A DNA stretch of 64,000 bases from Clostridia bacterium. Lineage in GTDB: Bacteria; Bacillota; Clostridia; Christensenellales; Aristaeellaceae. Numbering within the stretch: the first letter of the stretch is position 1; each line of letters begins with the position of its first letter. The position numbers and the translations under genes are program-made. The stretch covers positions 62,001 to 126,000 of the forward strand of contig JAFXQO010000001.1 of assembly GCA_017527065.1 (NCBI GenBank), read 5' to 3'. Shown one piece after another: positions 28,138-50,366 of this stretch. The notes beneath the pieces were generated by a model, which saw nothing but the letters and a program-made list of their open reading frames with translations, was not told the origin of the DNA and did no database searches.

Positions 28138-29148
28138 TTACCAGACGCGCGCCACCGTTACGTCCCTGAAGTAATACGTCACGATGTCCTCGGCGGACTG
28201 CCCTTCGCTGGCCAGGGCGTAGGCGCCCCACTGGCTCATGCCCACGCCGTGGCCGTAGCCGCGGCCCTTGAAGGTGACCTTGCCGTTTTCAAGAGACACG
28301 CTGTCCAGCAGGGTGGACTTGAGGCGCGCGCTGTCCAGGTTGACGCGCAGGTTCGGCGCGGAGACCTCGCGGCCGTTGATGAGGAAGGTCACTGTGCGTC
28401 CGGATTCGCTCTTTCGGCCCAGTTCGATGGAGTTGACCGTTTCGCCCACGCCCGCGCCGGTTTCCCGCGCGGCGGCGGCCACTTCCTCCGCGGTGAACGT
28501 CGCCTCCCACTGCTTCACGCTGGTGGGCGCGCTGTCGGAATCGGGCGAGTCGACGATCTGCGTGTAGCCGGGATTGCCACCCTCGTAGCTCAGGCCCTCC
28601 ACGGGGAGCTCGGTCCTGCCGCCGGAATGGGCGTGGAACCAGGCGTAGGGCAGTTCGCCGTCCGCGCTGAGTACCAGGCCGCGGGTGTCGTTCACAGCCT
28701 TGCGAATCCGGTCGTTAATGGCCTCAGGCGCGTAGGCCTGGGCCTCGGATATGTCGGTGGAGATCTGCGCGCCGGGGTATTTCGATTCCTTCTCGCTGAT
28801 GAACTTCAAGACGAACGTGCGCGCGAGTATGGCCTGGGCCTTCAGCGCCTCCATGGGCCAGTCGTTGCGCATCTCGCCGGCGAGCACGCCCATAACGTAG
28901 TCCTCGATGGCGACGTCCTCGTAATCTTCGGAAGTAGTGTTGTAGATGGTGATGACGGGCGCGCCGTCCCCGCCGAATGCAAGGCCCTCCGGTAGGGCGG
29001 GCGCTCCGGCGTCGCGGGCGGCGGCGGCCTGCTGGCGCAGGGCGGCCTGTTCGGCTTCATCCATTTGGGACGCGGCTGACTGCTGGCAGGCGGTCAGGGC
29101 GGCGAGGGTCAGTAATGCCGCGACCAGCGCGGCGATGCGTTTCTTCAT
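28138..29148 (-). CDS. SpoIID/LytB-domain lipoprotein
   Basis: 336-residue lipoprotein (signal peptide with lipobox LTAC, lipid-modified Cys at about residue 20). The SpoIID domain (about 65-330) degrades glycan strands stripped of stem peptides in SpoIID itself. The catalytic Glu is E92 in GVLAGEMRNDWPMEALKAQA, followed by HAHSGG and the GRGYGHGVGMSQWGA block. The frame opens further upstream, but the ATG at 29148 follows AGGAGG. No sporulation genes are nearby and the protein is anchored outside the cell, so a vegetative wall role is possible. Confidence 0.9.
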   Translation of the reverse strand: MKKRIAALVAALLTLAALTACQQSAASQMDEAEQAALRQQAAAARDAGAPALPEGLAFGGDGAPVITIYNTTSEDYEDVAIEDYVMGVLAGEMRNDWPMEALKAQAILARTFVLKFISEKESKYPGAQISTDISEAQAYAPEAINDRIRKAVNDTRGLVLSADGELPYAWFHAHSGGRTELPVEGLSYEGGNPGYTQIVDSPDSDSAPTSVKQWEATFTAEEVAAAARETGAGVGETVNSIELGRKSESGRTVTFLINGREVSAPNLRVNLDSARLKSTLLDSVSLENGKVTFKGRGYGHGVGMSQWGAYALASEGQSAEDIVTYYFRDVTVARVW

Positions 29149-29284
29149 GGAAAACACCTCCTGTTTGCCCATAGCTTGGCTCAAACGGGCGCGCGCTATG
29201 CGGAAACGGGAGGCGGCGGAGGAAATAATCTGACAGAGCAGGCCGATAAACAGGAATTTGTCCGGAAATAACAATCCTGTGAGA

Positions 29285-33426: not shown

Positions 33427-33453
33427 TCAAGAGGTTTTCAATAGAGGAAAGGA

Positions 33454-36183
<2,730 letters not shown>

Positions 36184-36192
36184 GAAGGAAAT

Positions 36193-37491
36193 ATGAGCAA
36201 TATCCCCTTTGAAAATGCGGCGCAGGCCGTCGCCTGGATCGACGGCCTGCGCTATGCGAGCGAAAAAAACGGCCTTGAAAACATGCGCGCCCTCTGCGCC
36301 GCCCTGGGGGATCCCCAGGACAGGCTCAGGTGCGTGCACGTGGCCGGCACGAACGGCAAGGGCTCGACCTGCGCGCTCCTTGAGCGCATGCTGCGCGCCT
36401 GCGGCCTGAAGACCGGCCTGTATACCTCGCCCTACCTCATGCGCTACAACGAGCGCATGAGGGTGAATGGCGAGCCCATCGGCGACGGCGCCCTCGCCGC
36501 CCTGGCGCAGCGCGTGCGCGAGCGGGCCGAGGCCCTGGCGGAGGCGGGCGTGCGGCCCACCTGGTTCGAGCTGGGCACGGCGCTGGCCTTCCTCTGGTTC
36601 GCCGAGGAAAAGGTGGACGTGGCCGTGATCGAAGTGGGCCTCGGCGGCCGGCTGGACGCGACCAACGTCATCACGCCTGAAATCTGCCTGCTCGGCCCCA
36701 TTGGGCTGGAGCACACCAAGCAGCTGGGCGATACGCTGGAGCAGATCGCCTTCGAGAAGGCCGGCATCATCAAGCCCGGCGTGCCCGCGGCGGTGCAGCG
36801 GCAGCAGACGGACAGCGTGCGGCAGGTGTTCCGCCGGGTCGCATGGGAAAAAGGCGCGCCGCTCACGGACCTGGCGGAGACGCCCATGGAGAACCTCTCC
36901 TGTCACGCTCGCGGGGCCGAATTCGACTTCCGCGGCCATCACGCCCGCATCGCCCTGGCCGGCCGGCACCAGGCGGATAACGCCTGCCTCGCGCTGGCGG
37001 GCCTCGACCTGCTCAGGCAAAAGGGCTGGGCGCTGGACGAGGCGCGGGCTATGGACGGCCTCTCCCGCGCGGTCTGGCCGGCGCGGCTGGAGTGGGTCGA
37101 CGACGGCACCCTCATCGACGGAGCGCACAACGCCCACGGCGCGCGGGCTCTGGCCGATTACGCGCGGGAATTCCTGGCGGGCCGGCGCGTGGTGTGCCTG
37201 GCCGGCATGATGAAGGACAAGGATACCGACGCCTGCGCGGCGCTGTTTGCCTCCATCGCAGACGCCGCCGTGGCCACGCAGATCGACTATCAGCGCGCCT
37301 TGCCCTGCGAAGATTTGGCCGCGCAGCTGGCCGACCACGGGCTGCCCTGCGAGGCCGTGCCGGACGAAAAGACAGCGCTCGGGCGCGCGCGTGAGCTGGC
37401 CGGGGAAAACGGCGTGGTGCTCATCTGCGGCTCCCTCTACCTCGCCGGCGACATGCGTCTTCTCCTGAATGACGACGGAGGGAGGATCTGA
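36193..37491 (+). CDS. folC: Folylpolyglutamate synthase / dihydrofolate synthase
   Basis: ATP-dependent ligase adding glutamate to folates, 432 residues. Mur-ligase-type P-loop VAGTNGKGSTCALLE (about 49-63), the folate loop GLYTSPYLMRYNERMRVNG, VGLGGRLDATNV and the DGAHNAHGARAL block. It starts 9 bases after valS, so it is in the T-box operon, which also occurs in Bacillus (valS-folC). Confidence 0.96.
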   Translation: MSNIPFENAAQAVAWIDGLRYASEKNGLENMRALCAALGDPQDRLRCVHVAGTNGKGSTCALLERMLRACGLKTGLYTSPYLMRYNERMRVNGEPIGDGALAALAQRVRERAEALAEAGVRPTWFELGTALAFLWFAEEKVDVAVIEVGLGGRLDATNVITPEICLLGPIGLEHTKQLGDTLEQIAFEKAGIIKPGVPAAVQRQQTDSVRQVFRRVAWEKGAPLTDLAETPMENLSCHARGAEFDFRGHHARIALAGRHQADNACLALAGLDLLRQKGWALDEARAMDGLSRAVWPARLEWVDDGTLIDGAHNAHGARALADYAREFLAGRRVVCLAGMMKDKDTDACAALFASIADAAVATQIDYQRALPCEDLAAQLADHGLPCEAVPDEKTALGRARELAGENGVVLICGSLYLAGDMRLLLNDDGGRI

Positions 37492-37492
37492 C

Positions 37493-38305
37493 ATGGTAAA
37501 GCGATCGAACTGCCACACGCACAGCGTGCTTTGCGACGGGAAGGACACCATCGGGCATATGGCGCGGCGGGCGCGGGAATTCGGGCTGGTGTCGCTTGGG
37601 TTTTCCGGGCACGGGCCCCAGACGAACAATTCGTTCGGCATCCGGAGCGAAGCGGAATACGCCGCCGAGGTGCGGCGGGTCGCGGCGGAGCACGCGGGCG
37701 GGATGAAGGTCTGGCTGGGCATCGAGCAGGACTATTTCGGCTATTGCACGATCCCCTACGACTACCGTCTGGGCGCGGTGCACTATCTCGACGGGCGCGA
37801 CGGCGTGAACCACGCCGTGGATCACAGCGAGGAGTGTTTCGAGCGGATGCTGCGGGAGGGCTTCGGCGGCGACGCCCTGGCCATGGCGCGGGCGTACTAT
37901 GGCCGCGTGGTGGAAATGTGCGAAAAGATCAGGCCGGACATCGTGGCGCACTACGACCTCATCTGCAAGTTCAACGAGGGCAACCGCTTCTTTGACGAGA
38001 GCGACCCGGCATATATGGCGGTATCGCTGGAGGCGCTTGAGGCGATCTGCGACGGGAACCGGCTGCTGGAGGTCAACACCGGCGCGATCGCCCGCGGGCG
38101 GCGCACCCGGCCCTATCCGGATTTTCCGCAGCTGGCGCGCTGGCGGGAGCTGGGCGGGCGCGTGATACTGGGCAGCGACTGCCACGACGCGGAGAAGCTG
38201 CTGTGCGGCTTCGACGGCGCGCTCGAAACGCTCCGGCGGGCGGGTTTCAGGTCGGTCTGGCGGCTGGGCGAGGGCGAGGCGCTGTTTGAAGAGGACGCAC
38301 TGTGA
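37493..38305 (+). CDS. PHP-domain histidinol-phosphatase-like phosphoesterase
   Basis: 270 residues of PHP fold resembling HisK-type histidinol phosphatase. Metal ligands include the first HxH (NCHTHSVLCDG, near residue 7), SGHGPQ, the GIEQDYF strand, HYDLICKFN and the final GSDCHDAE. No histidine genes are adjacent, so the substrate may be another phosphoester. The ATG lies six bases after GGAGGGAGG at the end of folC. Confidence 0.85.
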   Translation: MVKRSNCHTHSVLCDGKDTIGHMARRAREFGLVSLGFSGHGPQTNNSFGIRSEAEYAAEVRRVAAEHAGGMKVWLGIEQDYFGYCTIPYDYRLGAVHYLDGRDGVNHAVDHSEECFERMLREGFGGDALAMARAYYGRVVEMCEKIRPDIVAHYDLICKFNEGNRFFDESDPAYMAVSLEALEAICDGNRLLEVNTGAIARGRRTRPYPDFPQLARWRELGGRVILGSDCHDAEKLLCGFDGALETLRRAGFRSVWRLGEGEALFEEDAL

Positions 38306-46415: not shown

Positions 46416-48464
46416 TTATTCCCGCCCGAACAGCGCCGTCTGGTCGCCTTCCGGCCACACGCGCACGCTTTGGGCGACGCCGGTGCCCTCCAGGTAGTAG
46501 AGCACCCGGCGGTGGGCGTACTGCCAGATCTCCTGCAGCGTGACGCCTCTGTCGCGGTCGGCGTCGGCCTTGAGGGTGCACACGCGGTCGCCGATCAGGT
46601 CCCAGCCTGCGCCCTCGCACAGGCTGCGGGCCATGATGGTGGCCATGCTGGCCTCGTCGCTGTCGTTGCCGAAGCTGCGCCGGTAGCTGTCCTCGTCGAC
46701 GCCGGCGGAGGTGAGAACGAGGTATTTGTCCGCCGCGAAGGCGGAGGCTTCGCCGCTTTGAAAGGCCTCGCACACGGCGCTAGTGAAGCGGTCGCATCCC
46801 TGCTCGCCGCCCAGGAACGCGCCGCTGCGGCAGCAGTCCACGATCACGGCCACCTTGCCCGGTATGCGCCGCAGCAGCTGCTCCAGCTGCGCCGCCGTCA
46901 CGCGGGTGCCGTCGTGCAGCTCGATCCAGGCTGTGTCGTCGCTGTCGCCGTGGCAGTTGATGTAAAAGAGCGACACGTCGCATTCCTTCGCCCCGGCAAA
47001 GGTCTCCTCGATGAGGGCCAGCAGGCTCTCCCGCGTGGAGTCCATCTGAAGGGTGACTTCATAGCGCCGGCCGTTCACCGACTGCTGAACCAGCATGTCG
47101 CGGACGCCCTCGGCGGTGTTCAGGCCGCCCAGCCGGGTGCGGCCGCTCTCGTAGTTCATCTCGCCCAGCACCAGCGCGCGATAAGTGGGCAAGGGTTCCG
47201 TCACGGTCACGGAGGCCGCGGCGGTGAAGTCTGAGGCGGCGCGCGCCACGATCCGCGTTTCGCCGGGAGACAGGCCGGTCACGCGGCCGCTCTGGTTCAC
47301 GACGGCCACGGTTTCGTCCTCGCTCGAATAGATGAGGCGCGTGTCGCTGGCGTTTTCCGGGGTGAACACCGGCGTGAGGATAGCCGACTCGCCCTGGGGC
47401 AGCGCGAGGCTGTCCGCGTCGAAGGCCAGACCCGCCAGCGGCACGGGGGAGACGTTCACCTCGCACACCACCTCGCGCAGTCCGGCGTAGGCGTGAACGA
47501 CCGTCCGCCCGGCCGAGACGCCCGTGACCGCGCCGGTCTCGTCGACACGGGCGATCCGCGGGTTTTCGCTGGCCCAGGCCACGTCGGGGAGGGCGCCCTC
47601 CGGGTGGAAGGCGGCCGACAGCGCGCGCGTCTCGCCGGCCTGCAGCGCGAGCTGCGTTTCCGAAAGCGACAGGCGCACGGGCAGCGCTTCGCCCGCTTCA
47701 GGCATGGCCACGATCAGGCGGTAGGCGCCGGTCTGGTTCGAGGCGGCGCACACGCGGATATAGTAGATTTCGCCGCCGTTCAGCCGCCGGCAGAAGCGGA
47801 AGTTGCCGTCGCCGGGGAAGAGGAGGTCGTCGCTCTGCGCGATCTCGCGCCAGGCCTTGTTCAGCAGCGCGCCCCGCGTGTCCAGCGCGGTCTCGCCGGC
47901 CGACTCGGTGCGCACCACATACCAGCCGTCCCGGGGGGCGATGAAGCTGTACCAGTGGGTGTCGCGGGCGGCGACGATGGCGCGCACGTAGCGCACGCTG
48001 CCGCTCTGCAGCCGCAGTGGCCGATCGACGCAGTGGCCGTAGGCGTCCTTCATGACCTCGATTATGGCGCTGCCGCCGCCCCGGGCGGTCACGCGCAGCT
48101 CGTAGCGCACACCCGCCTCCAGTACGGCGCTGAGGGCGAAGGCGTCGTCGCCCGAGGTCTGGGCGAGGGCCGCGCCGCGCTCGTCGGTGAGCCGCGCGGT
48201 CAGGAAAAGGCCGCCCGCGCCGCCGGGCAGGCCGTGGAAGATGTAGGCGTCGGTGCGCGCCGGGGTGAAGCGGTAGACGGTTTCCCGGGGGAAGCTGTCG
48301 GCGTAGAAGGTCTCGCGGCTGTTCAGGAACAGCGTGATCGCGCTGTCCTGCGCGCCTTCCGAGGGCGCGGCGTGCCCGGCCCCCGCGAAAAACCGCGGGA
48401 GCATCGAGATCAAAACCAGCGCCATGAGCGCCGCGCGGAGGTCCCGCGCCCACCGTCTCTTCAC
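46416..48464 (-). CDS. Secreted caspase-like (C14) cysteine peptidase with two Ig-like (Big2) domains
   Basis: 682 residues. Signal peptide at 1-32; N-terminal beta region (about 40-255) resembling two pre-peptidase-like domains; Big2-type Ig domains at about 260-345 and 350-435 (GAVTGVSAGRT, GRVTGLSPGET); caspase-like domain from 440 to the end. The catalytic pair is visible: H505 in FYINCHGD and C545 in VIVDCCRSG, the metacaspase-type DxCxSG motif. An Asp at the substrate pocket cannot be judged. GTG start 11 bases after the SpoIID/SH3 gene stop. Likely secreted and surface-acting. Confidence 0.87.
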   Translation of the reverse strand: MKRRWARDLRAALMALVLISMLPRFFAGAGHAAPSEGAQDSAITLFLNSRETFYADSFPRETVYRFTPARTDAYIFHGLPGGAGGLFLTARLTDERGAALAQTSGDDAFALSAVLEAGVRYELRVTARGGGSAIIEVMKDAYGHCVDRPLRLQSGSVRYVRAIVAARDTHWYSFIAPRDGWYVVRTESAGETALDTRGALLNKAWREIAQSDDLLFPGDGNFRFCRRLNGGEIYYIRVCAASNQTGAYRLIVAMPEAGEALPVRLSLSETQLALQAGETRALSAAFHPEGALPDVAWASENPRIARVDETGAVTGVSAGRTVVHAYAGLREVVCEVNVSPVPLAGLAFDADSLALPQGESAILTPVFTPENASDTRLIYSSEDETVAVVNQSGRVTGLSPGETRIVARAASDFTAAASVTVTEPLPTYRALVLGEMNYESGRTRLGGLNTAEGVRDMLVQQSVNGRRYEVTLQMDSTRESLLALIEETFAGAKECDVSLFYINCHGDSDDTAWIELHDGTRVTAAQLEQLLRRIPGKVAVIVDCCRSGAFLGGEQGCDRFTSAVCEAFQSGEASAFAADKYLVLTSAGVDEDSYRRSFGNDSDEASMATIMARSLCEGAGWDLIGDRVCTLKADADRDRGVTLQEIWQYAHRRVLYYLEGTGVAQSVRVWPEGDQTALFGRE

Positions 48465-48475
48465 ATGCTCTCCAT

Positions 48476-50188
48476 TCAGCCGCCGTCCACCGTCAGGTAC
48501 TGGCTGGACACATAGCCCTCGACCGAACCCGTCCTCACCCGCGTCCAGCCGTTTTCATCCTTCGCCGCCACGACCTGGACGCCGTTTTTCAGCTCCGCCA
48601 GGATGGGCGCGTCGGTGGAGGGGGCGCTGCGCACGTTGAGCGTGGACCAGGCGGTGGACAGGCGCACGGTGGCGATGGATTCGCCTTCGCCCGGCTCGGG
48701 CAGGGGCTCCCGGACGGGCGTCGCCGCCGGCAGTTCCGGGATGGGCGGCAGGATCTCGTCGTCGAAGGCGGCCGCCTCGAAGGTCAGGCCGGGATAGTAG
48801 AAGGCGAGGATCTCCTCGCAGCGCATGCCGTATTGGCCGGCCATGATCTGCGCGCCGCGCTGGCTGAGGCCCACGCCGTGTCCGTAGCGGCGCAGCTGCA
48901 GCGCGAAGACGTCCTCCTCCTCGATGACCGTGACCAGCTCGCAATCCAGGCCGCTCAGCTTCATGCCCAGCTCGTTCTTGAGCTGGCCGTATACGGTCAG
49001 GTCGTATGTGAATTCTTCATCGAGCTGTGTCCATGCGCCCGGCTTCATGCCGACGACCTCCCGCTCGATCTTCACGCCGGTGAAGATTTCGCGGATGCGC
49101 TCCTCGAAGGTCAGTTCGGTGTAGACCGGCTCCATGGGCCGCGCGCTGAGGGCATAGGTCACGCGCACGTACTGATACATGCGGTTTTCCGGGCCGAATT
49201 TCGTGGTGTGCGGGGTGAGGGAAATCACGCGGTCGGGCCGGATGTCGCCGGTTTCCTCGCTGTAGCCCATGGCGCCCAGCCGCTCGGCGGCGGCCTCGGC
49301 CAGCCACTGGGTCAGCTGCGCCGGGGCGTCGGAGAGGTTCTTGCGGAAGGCCAGGGTGGAGACCGGGCTCAGCGGGTTTTCCAGGTCGTAAGGGTCGTCG
49401 TGGATGTTCAGGTAGGCGTCGCCTCCCGGCGCGGAAAGCACGTCGCCCGGCAGCGCGGTCTGGCCGCCGTTGGTGGCGGTGTAATAGCAGGCGGCGTATC
49501 GGCCATTGAAGCGCCCGCACACGCCGCGCGTGGCCTCGACGGCGGCCGCGGCGTTCTGCCAGGCGGGATCAAAGCCGAAAAACACCTGATCGGCCGGGGT
49601 GTCCACCAGGTCGTAGTTCTTCGCGCCGCGTTCCGCGCGCCGGCTGAGGGCGTAGGTGCGGGCGGCCACCGCCTGGGCCTTCAGCGCCTCCAGGGGGAAG
49701 GCGTCGTTCATTTCAAAGGGCAGCACGCCCTTGAGGTACTCTTCCACGTCGATCACGAGCACCGGCTGCAGCGCCGCGCCCTCCGCGTTCAGCTCCAGCG
49801 AGCCGCAGTACAGATTGCCCCGGGCGGAGCCGTCTATGTACAGGCCGTTTTCGCCGTCCGCCTGGTGGCGCGTCAGCGTGACGCCCGCGCCCATGTTCAT
49901 CTGCAGGCCGCCGCAGCGGAGCCAGACCGCGCCGTTCCGAGCGGAGGCCGTGATCTCCGTGCCGCGCTCGAAAAACAGGCCGGCGTTGCCGTCTATGCTG
50001 TAGCTGCCCGCCAGGCGCAGCGTGAGCTCGGACGGTTCGCCCAGCGATTTCAGCCAAACCCGCAGCGCGCCGCTCTCGCGCCCGGCTTCCTGGCCCGCGG
50101 CGGCCTGGCCGGCTTCGGCCAGCCCCAGCGAGCCGATCAGCATGATACAAAGCGCCAGCAGCGCGCCTTTGAGCAAAGGATGTTTCAT
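48476..50188 (-). CDS. Secreted SpoIID/LytB-domain protein with C-terminal bacterial SH3 domain
   Basis: 570 residues. Signal peptide at 1-24; SpoIID domain (about 45-465) with the catalytic Glu E159 in GVLPFEMNDAFPLEALKAQAV, TNGGQTALPGD, and the RRYGHGVGLSQRGAQIMA block; Pro-rich linker (about 480-505); SH3b domain at the end (LNVRSAPSTDAPILAEL...GYVSSQYLTV) for wall binding. Predicted wall-bound lytic transglycosylase. The frame opens at 50254, but the ATG at 50188 follows GGGAGG. It directly precedes the caspase-like gene in an operon, which is unusual for SpoIID proteins. Confidence 0.9.
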   Translation of the reverse strand: MKHPLLKGALLALCIMLIGSLGLAEAGQAAAGQEAGRESGALRVWLKSLGEPSELTLRLAGSYSIDGNAGLFFERGTEITASARNGAVWLRCGGLQMNMGAGVTLTRHQADGENGLYIDGSARGNLYCGSLELNAEGAALQPVLVIDVEEYLKGVLPFEMNDAFPLEALKAQAVAARTYALSRRAERGAKNYDLVDTPADQVFFGFDPAWQNAAAAVEATRGVCGRFNGRYAACYYTATNGGQTALPGDVLSAPGGDAYLNIHDDPYDLENPLSPVSTLAFRKNLSDAPAQLTQWLAEAAAERLGAMGYSEETGDIRPDRVISLTPHTTKFGPENRMYQYVRVTYALSARPMEPVYTELTFEERIREIFTGVKIEREVVGMKPGAWTQLDEEFTYDLTVYGQLKNELGMKLSGLDCELVTVIEEEDVFALQLRRYGHGVGLSQRGAQIMAGQYGMRCEEILAFYYPGLTFEAAAFDDEILPPIPELPAATPVREPLPEPGEGESIATVRLSTAWSTLNVRSAPSTDAPILAELKNGVQVVAAKDENGWTRVRTGSVEGYVSSQYLTVDGG

Positions 50189-50225: not shown

Positions 50226-50234
50226 ATCATAACA
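50226..50234 (-). promoter_or_regulatory. Extended -10 promoter candidate for the SpoIID/SH3-caspase operon
   Basis: On the minus strand TGTTATGAT (TG, one base, TATGAT); -35 is poor (GTGCAA at 17 bp). Confidence 0.38.
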
Positions 50235-50366
50235 CAATCATGCCCCGTTTGCACTCTTTTTTGCGCTTATGGCAAATATTTTCACTGATTCAGACGAATT
50301 TTCGCCCCGTTCGGTTTCCGGGGCGTGAAAAGGCGCGATTTGGCGCTGTTCAAGCGGGTAAAAAGG

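Follow-up and report, generated by a model that had tools for sequence, protein, structure and literature searches.

Why would a bacterium keep a gene for an exported caspase-fold protease directly behind one for a SpoIID-type cell wall enzyme? The question is raised by a 64,000-nucleotide stretch of DNA of a Clostridia bacterium (contig JAFXQO010000001.1, positions 62,001 to 126,000; family Aristaeellaceae), called the window here, in which a SpoIID-SH3 gene and a caspase-fold gene lie 11 bp apart on the minus strand. To our knowledge, little has been established about what bacterial caspases normally do, with cell death or defence as the usual guess. We propose that the protease and the SpoIID protein work at the cell surface as a unit of protease and substrate, each step beyond the conservation of the genes being one that we infer.

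The gene pair and its conservation

Open reading frames (ORFs), domain matches and a fold match upheld the original prediction of such a pair, in which both proteins begin, as judged by eye, with export-type, signal-peptide-like starts. The features of the two genes are as follows (AF2, AlphaFold2; S1, the pocket for the P1 residue).

48476-50188, minus strand: SpoIID-SH3 wall enzyme gene, 570 amino acids (ORF list, Pfam/NCBIfam, PDB profile)
50057-50086, minus strand: signal/linker-to-SpoIID junction, residues 35-44, including E38-S39-G40 and R43-V44; degenerate DDG position
48749-49771, minus strand: SpoIID core, residues 140-480 (Pfam/NCBIfam, PDB profile, fold match); E159 codon at 49712-49714
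48491-48646, minus strand: SH3_3 domain, residues 515-566 (Pfam)
46416-48464, minus strand: caspase-fold protease gene, 682 amino acids, signal-peptide-like start (ORF list, AF2, fold match, orthologues)
47700-48341, minus strand: N-terminal beta-strand region, residues 42-255, probably two beta-sandwiches (AF2 secondary structure, Foldseek)
47196-47675, minus strand: two Big_2 Ig-like domains, about residues 264-423 (Pfam)
46419-47192, minus strand: caspase-fold domain, residues 425-682 (fold match); H505 codon at 46950-46952, C545 codon at 46830-46832
47133-47135, minus strand: R444, predicted S1 Arg of loop L1 (alignment to insect caspase chains)
46836-46838, minus strand: D543, metacaspase-type acid two before the catalytic Cys (46/46 clade members)
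46680-46682, minus strand: R595, predicted S1 Arg of loop L5, S-Y-R (motif, position in model, fold match)
46530-46565, minus strand: EF-hand-like Ca2+ loop, residues 634-645, DxDxDxxVTxxE (conserved D634/E645, weak profile matches)

The arrangement was followed in two genome sets that partly overlap. The named set, with one genome per species, was scanned with the caspase-domain alignment A3 and gave 38 loci, picked without regard to adjacency; 37 were kept after removal of a weak Lachnospiraceae match of 40 residues (L139). The titles in this set name uncultured Clostridia, Clostridiales or Eubacteriales, Candidatus Pullichristensenella, Alectryocaccomicrobium and Faecivicinus, and one Christensenella sp., several of them giving rumen or gut as the source; the hosts of the pair are uncultured bacteria, mostly of gut or rumen. 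The family sample comprised 200 genomes of the bacterial family, 67 of which had a caspase match with an E value no higher than 1e-30. Caspases scoring at least 183 bits, found in 47 of the 200 genomes, were taken as orthologous; this cut was set by the authors where the scores leave no wide gap, and is supported by the tree described below. Another 26 family caspases, from among the 38 listed matches below 183 bits, served for comparison.

Conservation of the adjacency, which had been named beforehand as the check on which the pairing would stand or fall, was observed in both sets. In 34/47 genomes of the family sample, SpoIID lies directly upstream of the orthologous caspase, on the same strand, and where longer gaps were checked they contain no coding-looking ORF; in the named set it is upstream on the same strand at 30 of the 37 loci. 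A contig end cuts the caspase locus in six of the 47 genomes (G013, G019, G086, G126, G145 and G152), and in one, G066, a single gene separates SpoIID from the caspase downstream. In the named set, the contig ends less than 330 bp away at six loci, and L113 is the only exception to the adjacency. The gap in the 30 named pairs has a median of 31 bp (range -32 to 1412) and does not exceed 250 bp in 27 of them. The intervening ORF in G066 (619 amino acids; L184, 2794-4653, plus strand) appears by eye to encode an ATPase of the ABC-F type. This genome has four caspase-domain matches (contigs C97, C102, C150 and C202), and the one on C150 falls in the SpoIID-linked clade.

Flanking genes vary between lineages while the pair stays. 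In genus g62, the caspase gene follows SpoIID at a distance of -4 to 15 bp in 6/6 genomes, and here it encodes a protein of 275-282 amino acids that consists of a signal-like start and the catalytic domain, the N-terminal beta region being absent. Since these short caspases still adjoin SpoIID, it is the catalytic domain that travels with it. In a tree of 46 orthologues (G126 was excluded as too short) and six other caspases, the orthologues form one clade with support of 100/99. The same groups recur, by eye, in a tree of 43 SpoIID rows, and 16 of 18 unpaired SpoIID relatives make up a clade of their own with moderate support (81/99). Across many genera the two genes lie side by side and point the same way, and the catalytic residues are kept in both proteins (H505 and C545 in 46/46 clade members, E159 in all 31 rows of the SpoIID alignment A6).

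The SpoIID-SH3 protein consists of a signal peptide (by eye), an N-terminal beta region, the SpoIID core and a C-terminal bacterial SH3 domain. Its AF2 model has a predicted local distance difference test score (pLDDT) of 85.5, with values below 50 at residues 20-36 and a block mean of 93 at residues 41-50, and matches structures 5i1t and 4rwr. Studied SpoIID/LytB members act on glycan strands (PMC6635528). Like the SpoIID proteins of B. subtilis and Chlamydiales, the protein has a SpoIID core with the conserved Glu; unlike these, it adds SH3, an extra N-terminal region and a caspase partner. It would be a glycan-cutting wall enzyme that is held at the membrane or carried on a long N-terminal linker, and in some lineages it appears to be anchored by a transmembrane segment. 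At L161-L166, all of one genus, the SpoIIDs look transmembrane-anchored with a basic N-terminus (by eye), the caspase is without accessory domains, and its gene overlaps or almost touches SpoIID. The window contains a second SpoIID of the canonical type (28138-29274, minus strand), which scores 185 bits against TIGR02870, below the cut-off of 234.75; a third, with SH3 matches, lies in a 1040-amino-acid open frame on contig C30 of the same genome.

The caspase fold of the window protein is supported by a structure match (AF2 model, second Foldseek look); the list for the whole model is headed by Ig-like and beta-sandwich proteins, and MALT1 first appears at rank 41. The window protein had no match to the Pfam C14 model; among 11 orthologous domains, 7 matched it with E values no higher than 1, the lowest being 7.5e-12. 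Residues D634 and E645 of the EF-hand-like loop are fixed in 46/46 clade members and also in 26/26 other family caspases, and the loop is therefore a trait of the wider caspase group. EF-hand chains are among its weak profile matches, and no single EF-hand Pfam model matched more than 2 of 11 members, these weakly. Dependence on Ca2+ is common among metacaspases (PMC9622860). A tRNA-Pro called by ARAGORN inside the caspase gene (48309-48390, minus strand) was rejected as very likely false, since it has no Rfam match and no such call was made in the loci of three congeners.

Candidate cleavage site and specificity pocket

If SpoIID is the substrate of its neighbour, where would it be cut? Paired SpoIIDs, 43 in number, were compared over the stretch leading up to the conserved [LIV]-R-V with which the folded SpoIID domain begins. 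At this junction of anchor or linker with the domain, the consensus is [S/A]-x-I-x-D-D-G, read as IEDDG at L120 and IADDG at L114. DDG is present in 31/43 sequences (26/37 after thinning at 80% identity) and an acid followed by Gly in 35/43. Conservation amounts to 2.9 bits for S/A, 2.5 for I, 3.2 for each D and 4.0 for G, with 1.0-1.9 bits at the other positions between -20 and -6. The part upstream of the motif is variable and takes the form of a signal peptide, membrane anchor or long linker.

None of the 16 SpoIIDs of the separate caspase-less clade has acid-Gly at the junction; among all 18 unpaired SpoIIDs, only those of G003 and G021 do, both outside that clade. Where the two genes have been separated onto different contigs, D-G is kept in the distant SpoIID of G112 (LTDDG), G088 (EADG) and G021 (EIDG), and the SpoIID of G087, which has a caspase fragment only, reads IADDG. 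No SpoIID of the paired type scored above the cut in G133 or G013. A basic-specific cut in the SpoIID-SH3 linker, where Arg is common, was considered and rejected as not discriminating, since Arg is, by eye, also found in the linker of unpaired SpoIIDs. The alignment inspected for this included a wrong-frame ORF (L089:10159-13569), which was removed from the later one.

Would the protease accept an acidic residue? Caspases hold a P1 Asp by an Arg of loop L1, a Gln of L4 and an Arg of L5, and the corresponding positions of MALT1 are acidic (PMC4357240). For the prokaryotic metacaspases and orthocaspases that have been characterised, a preference for basic P1 residues is described (PMC8283722, PMC6426788). 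With these C14 proteases the clade shares the fold, the His-Cys dyad and an Asp placed two residues ahead of the Cys; it differs from them in having Thr/Ser for the alpha-1 acid and two fixed Arg at positions that resemble the S1 sites of animal caspases. The first, R444, is part of an R-x-G motif and was found in 45/45 aligned clade members (one has a gap) and in 0/26 other family caspases, 18 of which have Leu. It aligns with the Arg of SRAGT or RRIGA in three solved insect caspase chains at E 0.01-0.04, a weak and consistent match. The second, R595, occurs in 46/46 clade members and in 0/26 others, within S-Y-R on a short strand (595-597) of L5 in the AF2 model; a profile of the short R595 stretch matched no caspase chain, and the equivalence of L5 is based on motif, model position and fold match. 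Together they resemble Arg87 and Arg233 of caspase-7 (PMC4357240), the second by motif and position only.

Position 450 in helix alpha-1, placed in S1 by alignment to metacaspase-4 and a MALT1 sequence, is Thr/Ser in 45/45 aligned clade members and Asp in 21/26 others. As the aligned insect caspases carry Asp here, Thr/Ser is not caspase-like in itself. The clade also differs from animal caspases in having D543 (46/46 members; 16/26 other family caspases) where animal caspases have Gln, and in being exported, with Ig-like domains and the EF-hand-like loop. As judged by these residues, the P1 pocket of the clade is predicted to be net basic or zwitterionic and, given this change of charge, Asp (or Asn, as in legumain) would be favoured over Arg or Lys. 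The S1 change would have arisen from an ordinary basic-specific bacterial caspase, presumably independently of animals. We suggest only tentatively that the clade represents exported, Ca2+-assisted, Asp-cutting caspases whose dedicated substrate would be the neighbouring SpoIID, cut at the IxDD↓G junction of anchor and domain.

Proposed mechanism and alternatives

How might such a unit operate? SpoIID-SH3, tethered at the membrane or by its linker, would be cut where anchor or linker meets the folded domain, at [S/A]xIxDD↓G in most lineages, by the exported caspase-fold protease, which Ca2+ may steady or activate through the EF-hand-like loop. The cut would release or activate SpoIID for wall remodelling in growth or division. 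We incline, somewhat more than evenly, to the view that SpoIID is the substrate of the caspase and is set free or activated by cleavage where anchor and domain join.

This would resemble the operation of Csp/SleC in clostridial germination, with another protease fold and probably in vegetative cells. SleC combines SpoIID/LytB with a peptidoglycan-binding domain and is a zymogen matured by a Csp protease (PMC5083711, PMC3567191). The common feature is maturation by a protease of a wall enzyme with a SpoIID/LytB domain, which for the pair is a proposal. However, Csp is a subtilase and the protease of the pair has a caspase fold, the SpoIID of the pair has SH3_3 where SleC has its peptidoglycan-binding domain, no sigma-E-like promoter was found for the pair, and some of the genomes that carry it gave no SpoIVA match. 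We propose that the pair may work like Csp/SleC without being a member of that system. A caspase fold is also combined with a peptidoglycan hydrolase in Metacaspase-Amidase_2 fusions (four sequences, PMC3501461); these are single polypeptides with an amidase, unlike the operon with SpoIID. The literature searched, largely without subscription papers, contained no pair of SpoIID and caspase.

Proteolytic activation, which the original prediction had offered, gains indirect support from the conserved candidate site, the changed S1 pocket and the Csp/SleC analogue, but not from the genus of the window itself, where the site is degenerate in 4/4 species (ESG, ESG, ESG and EPG). Several further points weigh against it. 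The site is gone in L112 (the G008 species) and G072 (L175), in both of which the caspase is intact, and the SpoIIDs of two genomes with separated genes read QEEA (G076) and GGEG (G103). Association of the motif with the caspase is confounded by shared descent, since 16 of the 18 unpaired SpoIIDs form the one moderately supported clade. The motif could also be structural, since an isolated bridge at residue 38 suggests that there may be some order in the junction. Six of the 47 caspase genomes are without SpoIID beside the caspase (G021, G076, G088, G103, G112 and G133), and for all members protease cleavage and wall activity are only predicted.

Degeneracy of the candidate site in several lineages, that of the window included, and the six genomes that hold the caspase away from SpoIID would suit two independent surface enzymes, the caspase degrading other wall or surface proteins and SpoIID remodelling glycan, with only expression and place in common. 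The six exceptions, however, are nested in three places of the orthologue clade, so that the pair looks old and split a few times; two of the three separated lineages (G021/G088 and G112) are nested among paired ones and retain D-G in a SpoIID that lies elsewhere, and the motif is conserved where the linker varies. Independent action is unlikely, though the least so of the alternatives.

A little less probable is a role in sporulation or germination, in which the pair would be a functional replacement for Csp/SleC, made during sporulation for cortex lysis. SleC provides the precedent of a SpoIID-domain wall enzyme activated by a protease, and the SpoIID model matches the SleC zymogen 9h68 weakly (E 2e-3). 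SpoIVA is also commoner in genomes with the orthologous caspase (33/47 versus 66/153 without; Fisher p 0.0014), more clearly so when genus g62 is left out (33/41 versus 66/153, p 2e-5); the caspase and SpoIVA scans are treated here as covering the same 200 genomes, and misses are not all listed in either. In a first sample of 60 genomes, SpoIVA was present in 10/10 pair genomes, including G019, in which the pair is split by contig ends. Against this, g62 keeps the pair in 6/6 sampled genomes with SpoIVA found in 0/6, and 66 SpoIVA-bearing genomes have no orthologous caspase.

The sigma-E/K-like promoter signal is likewise at the level of controls. The sigma-E-like motif was found in 6/42 pair upstreams and 25/228 control genes, compared with 16/20 for SpoIVA as the positive control (the promoter set excluded L115). 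The sigma-F/G-like score of the pair upstreams was also at control level, in a comparison run with no positive control, and the generic sigma-A score did not separate them (mean 8.52 versus 8.16). The genus of the window instead carries a conserved element.

50226-50253, minus strand: promoter-like element upstream of the pair, TGCAAA - 16 - TATGAT, conserved in four species of the window genus

A generic consensus scanner reported no promoter at this element. Given its conservation and a sigma-E-like motif only at control level, expression of the pair is probably vegetative. A sporulation role ranks lower because the co-occurrence with SpoIVA is lineage-bound and broken by g62, and because the sigma-E test was negative with a working control. 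The earlier statement that a sporulation context is not present holds for the promoter and for g62, but not for the genome, in which SpoIVA is present elsewhere, or for the window, with its canonical SpoIID.

Least probable is a lytic or cell-death pair, in which SpoIID, switched on by the caspase, would lyse its own or a neighbouring cell, or the caspase would serve in defence: fusions of bacterial metacaspases with amidases have been linked to cell death (PMC3501461) and bacterial gasdermin systems place caspase-like proteases beside their own substrates (PMC9079055), but PADLOC gave a weak caspase-model match over part of the domain (E 3e-4) and none for SpoIID, the pair stands beside housekeeping and wall-synthesis genes with no evident defence gene among the Pfam-scanned neighbours, the caspase and SpoIID trees are broadly congruent by eye, as for vertical inheritance, and both proteins look exported.

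Genomic neighbourhood and significance

A divergent FHA-like gene precedes SpoIID at 20/30 named pair loci and 0/18 unpaired SpoIID loci; six of the ten pair loci without it have less than 1.4 kb upstream of SpoIID, and two of six scanned FHA-like proteins reach the Pfam cut-off. In the window genus, RmuC takes its place. An FtsW/RodA-type gene is visible at 16 of the named pair loci and a penicillin-binding protein (PBP) gene at nine, several loci ending before the latter. The order FHA-like - FtsW/RodA-type - PBP, divergent from the pair, is seen at L114 (1-2515), L118, L123, L133 and others, and is reminiscent of the actinobacterial order fha-rodA-pbpA. Elsewhere in the window, an ORF of 1431 amino acids (33427-37722, minus strand) lies antisense to plus-strand ORFs of strong coding bias (33454-36183 and 36193-37491); it has no NCBIfam match and is probably spurious.

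What, then, would the protease-substrate reading mean? A conserved bacterial caspase here has a neighbouring candidate substrate, a candidate site in it and a predicted specificity. If the reading is true, a second protease fold would be in control of SpoIID-type wall enzymes. The caspase may in addition cut after Asp in the manner of animal caspases, a specificity that would be unusual among bacterial ones.

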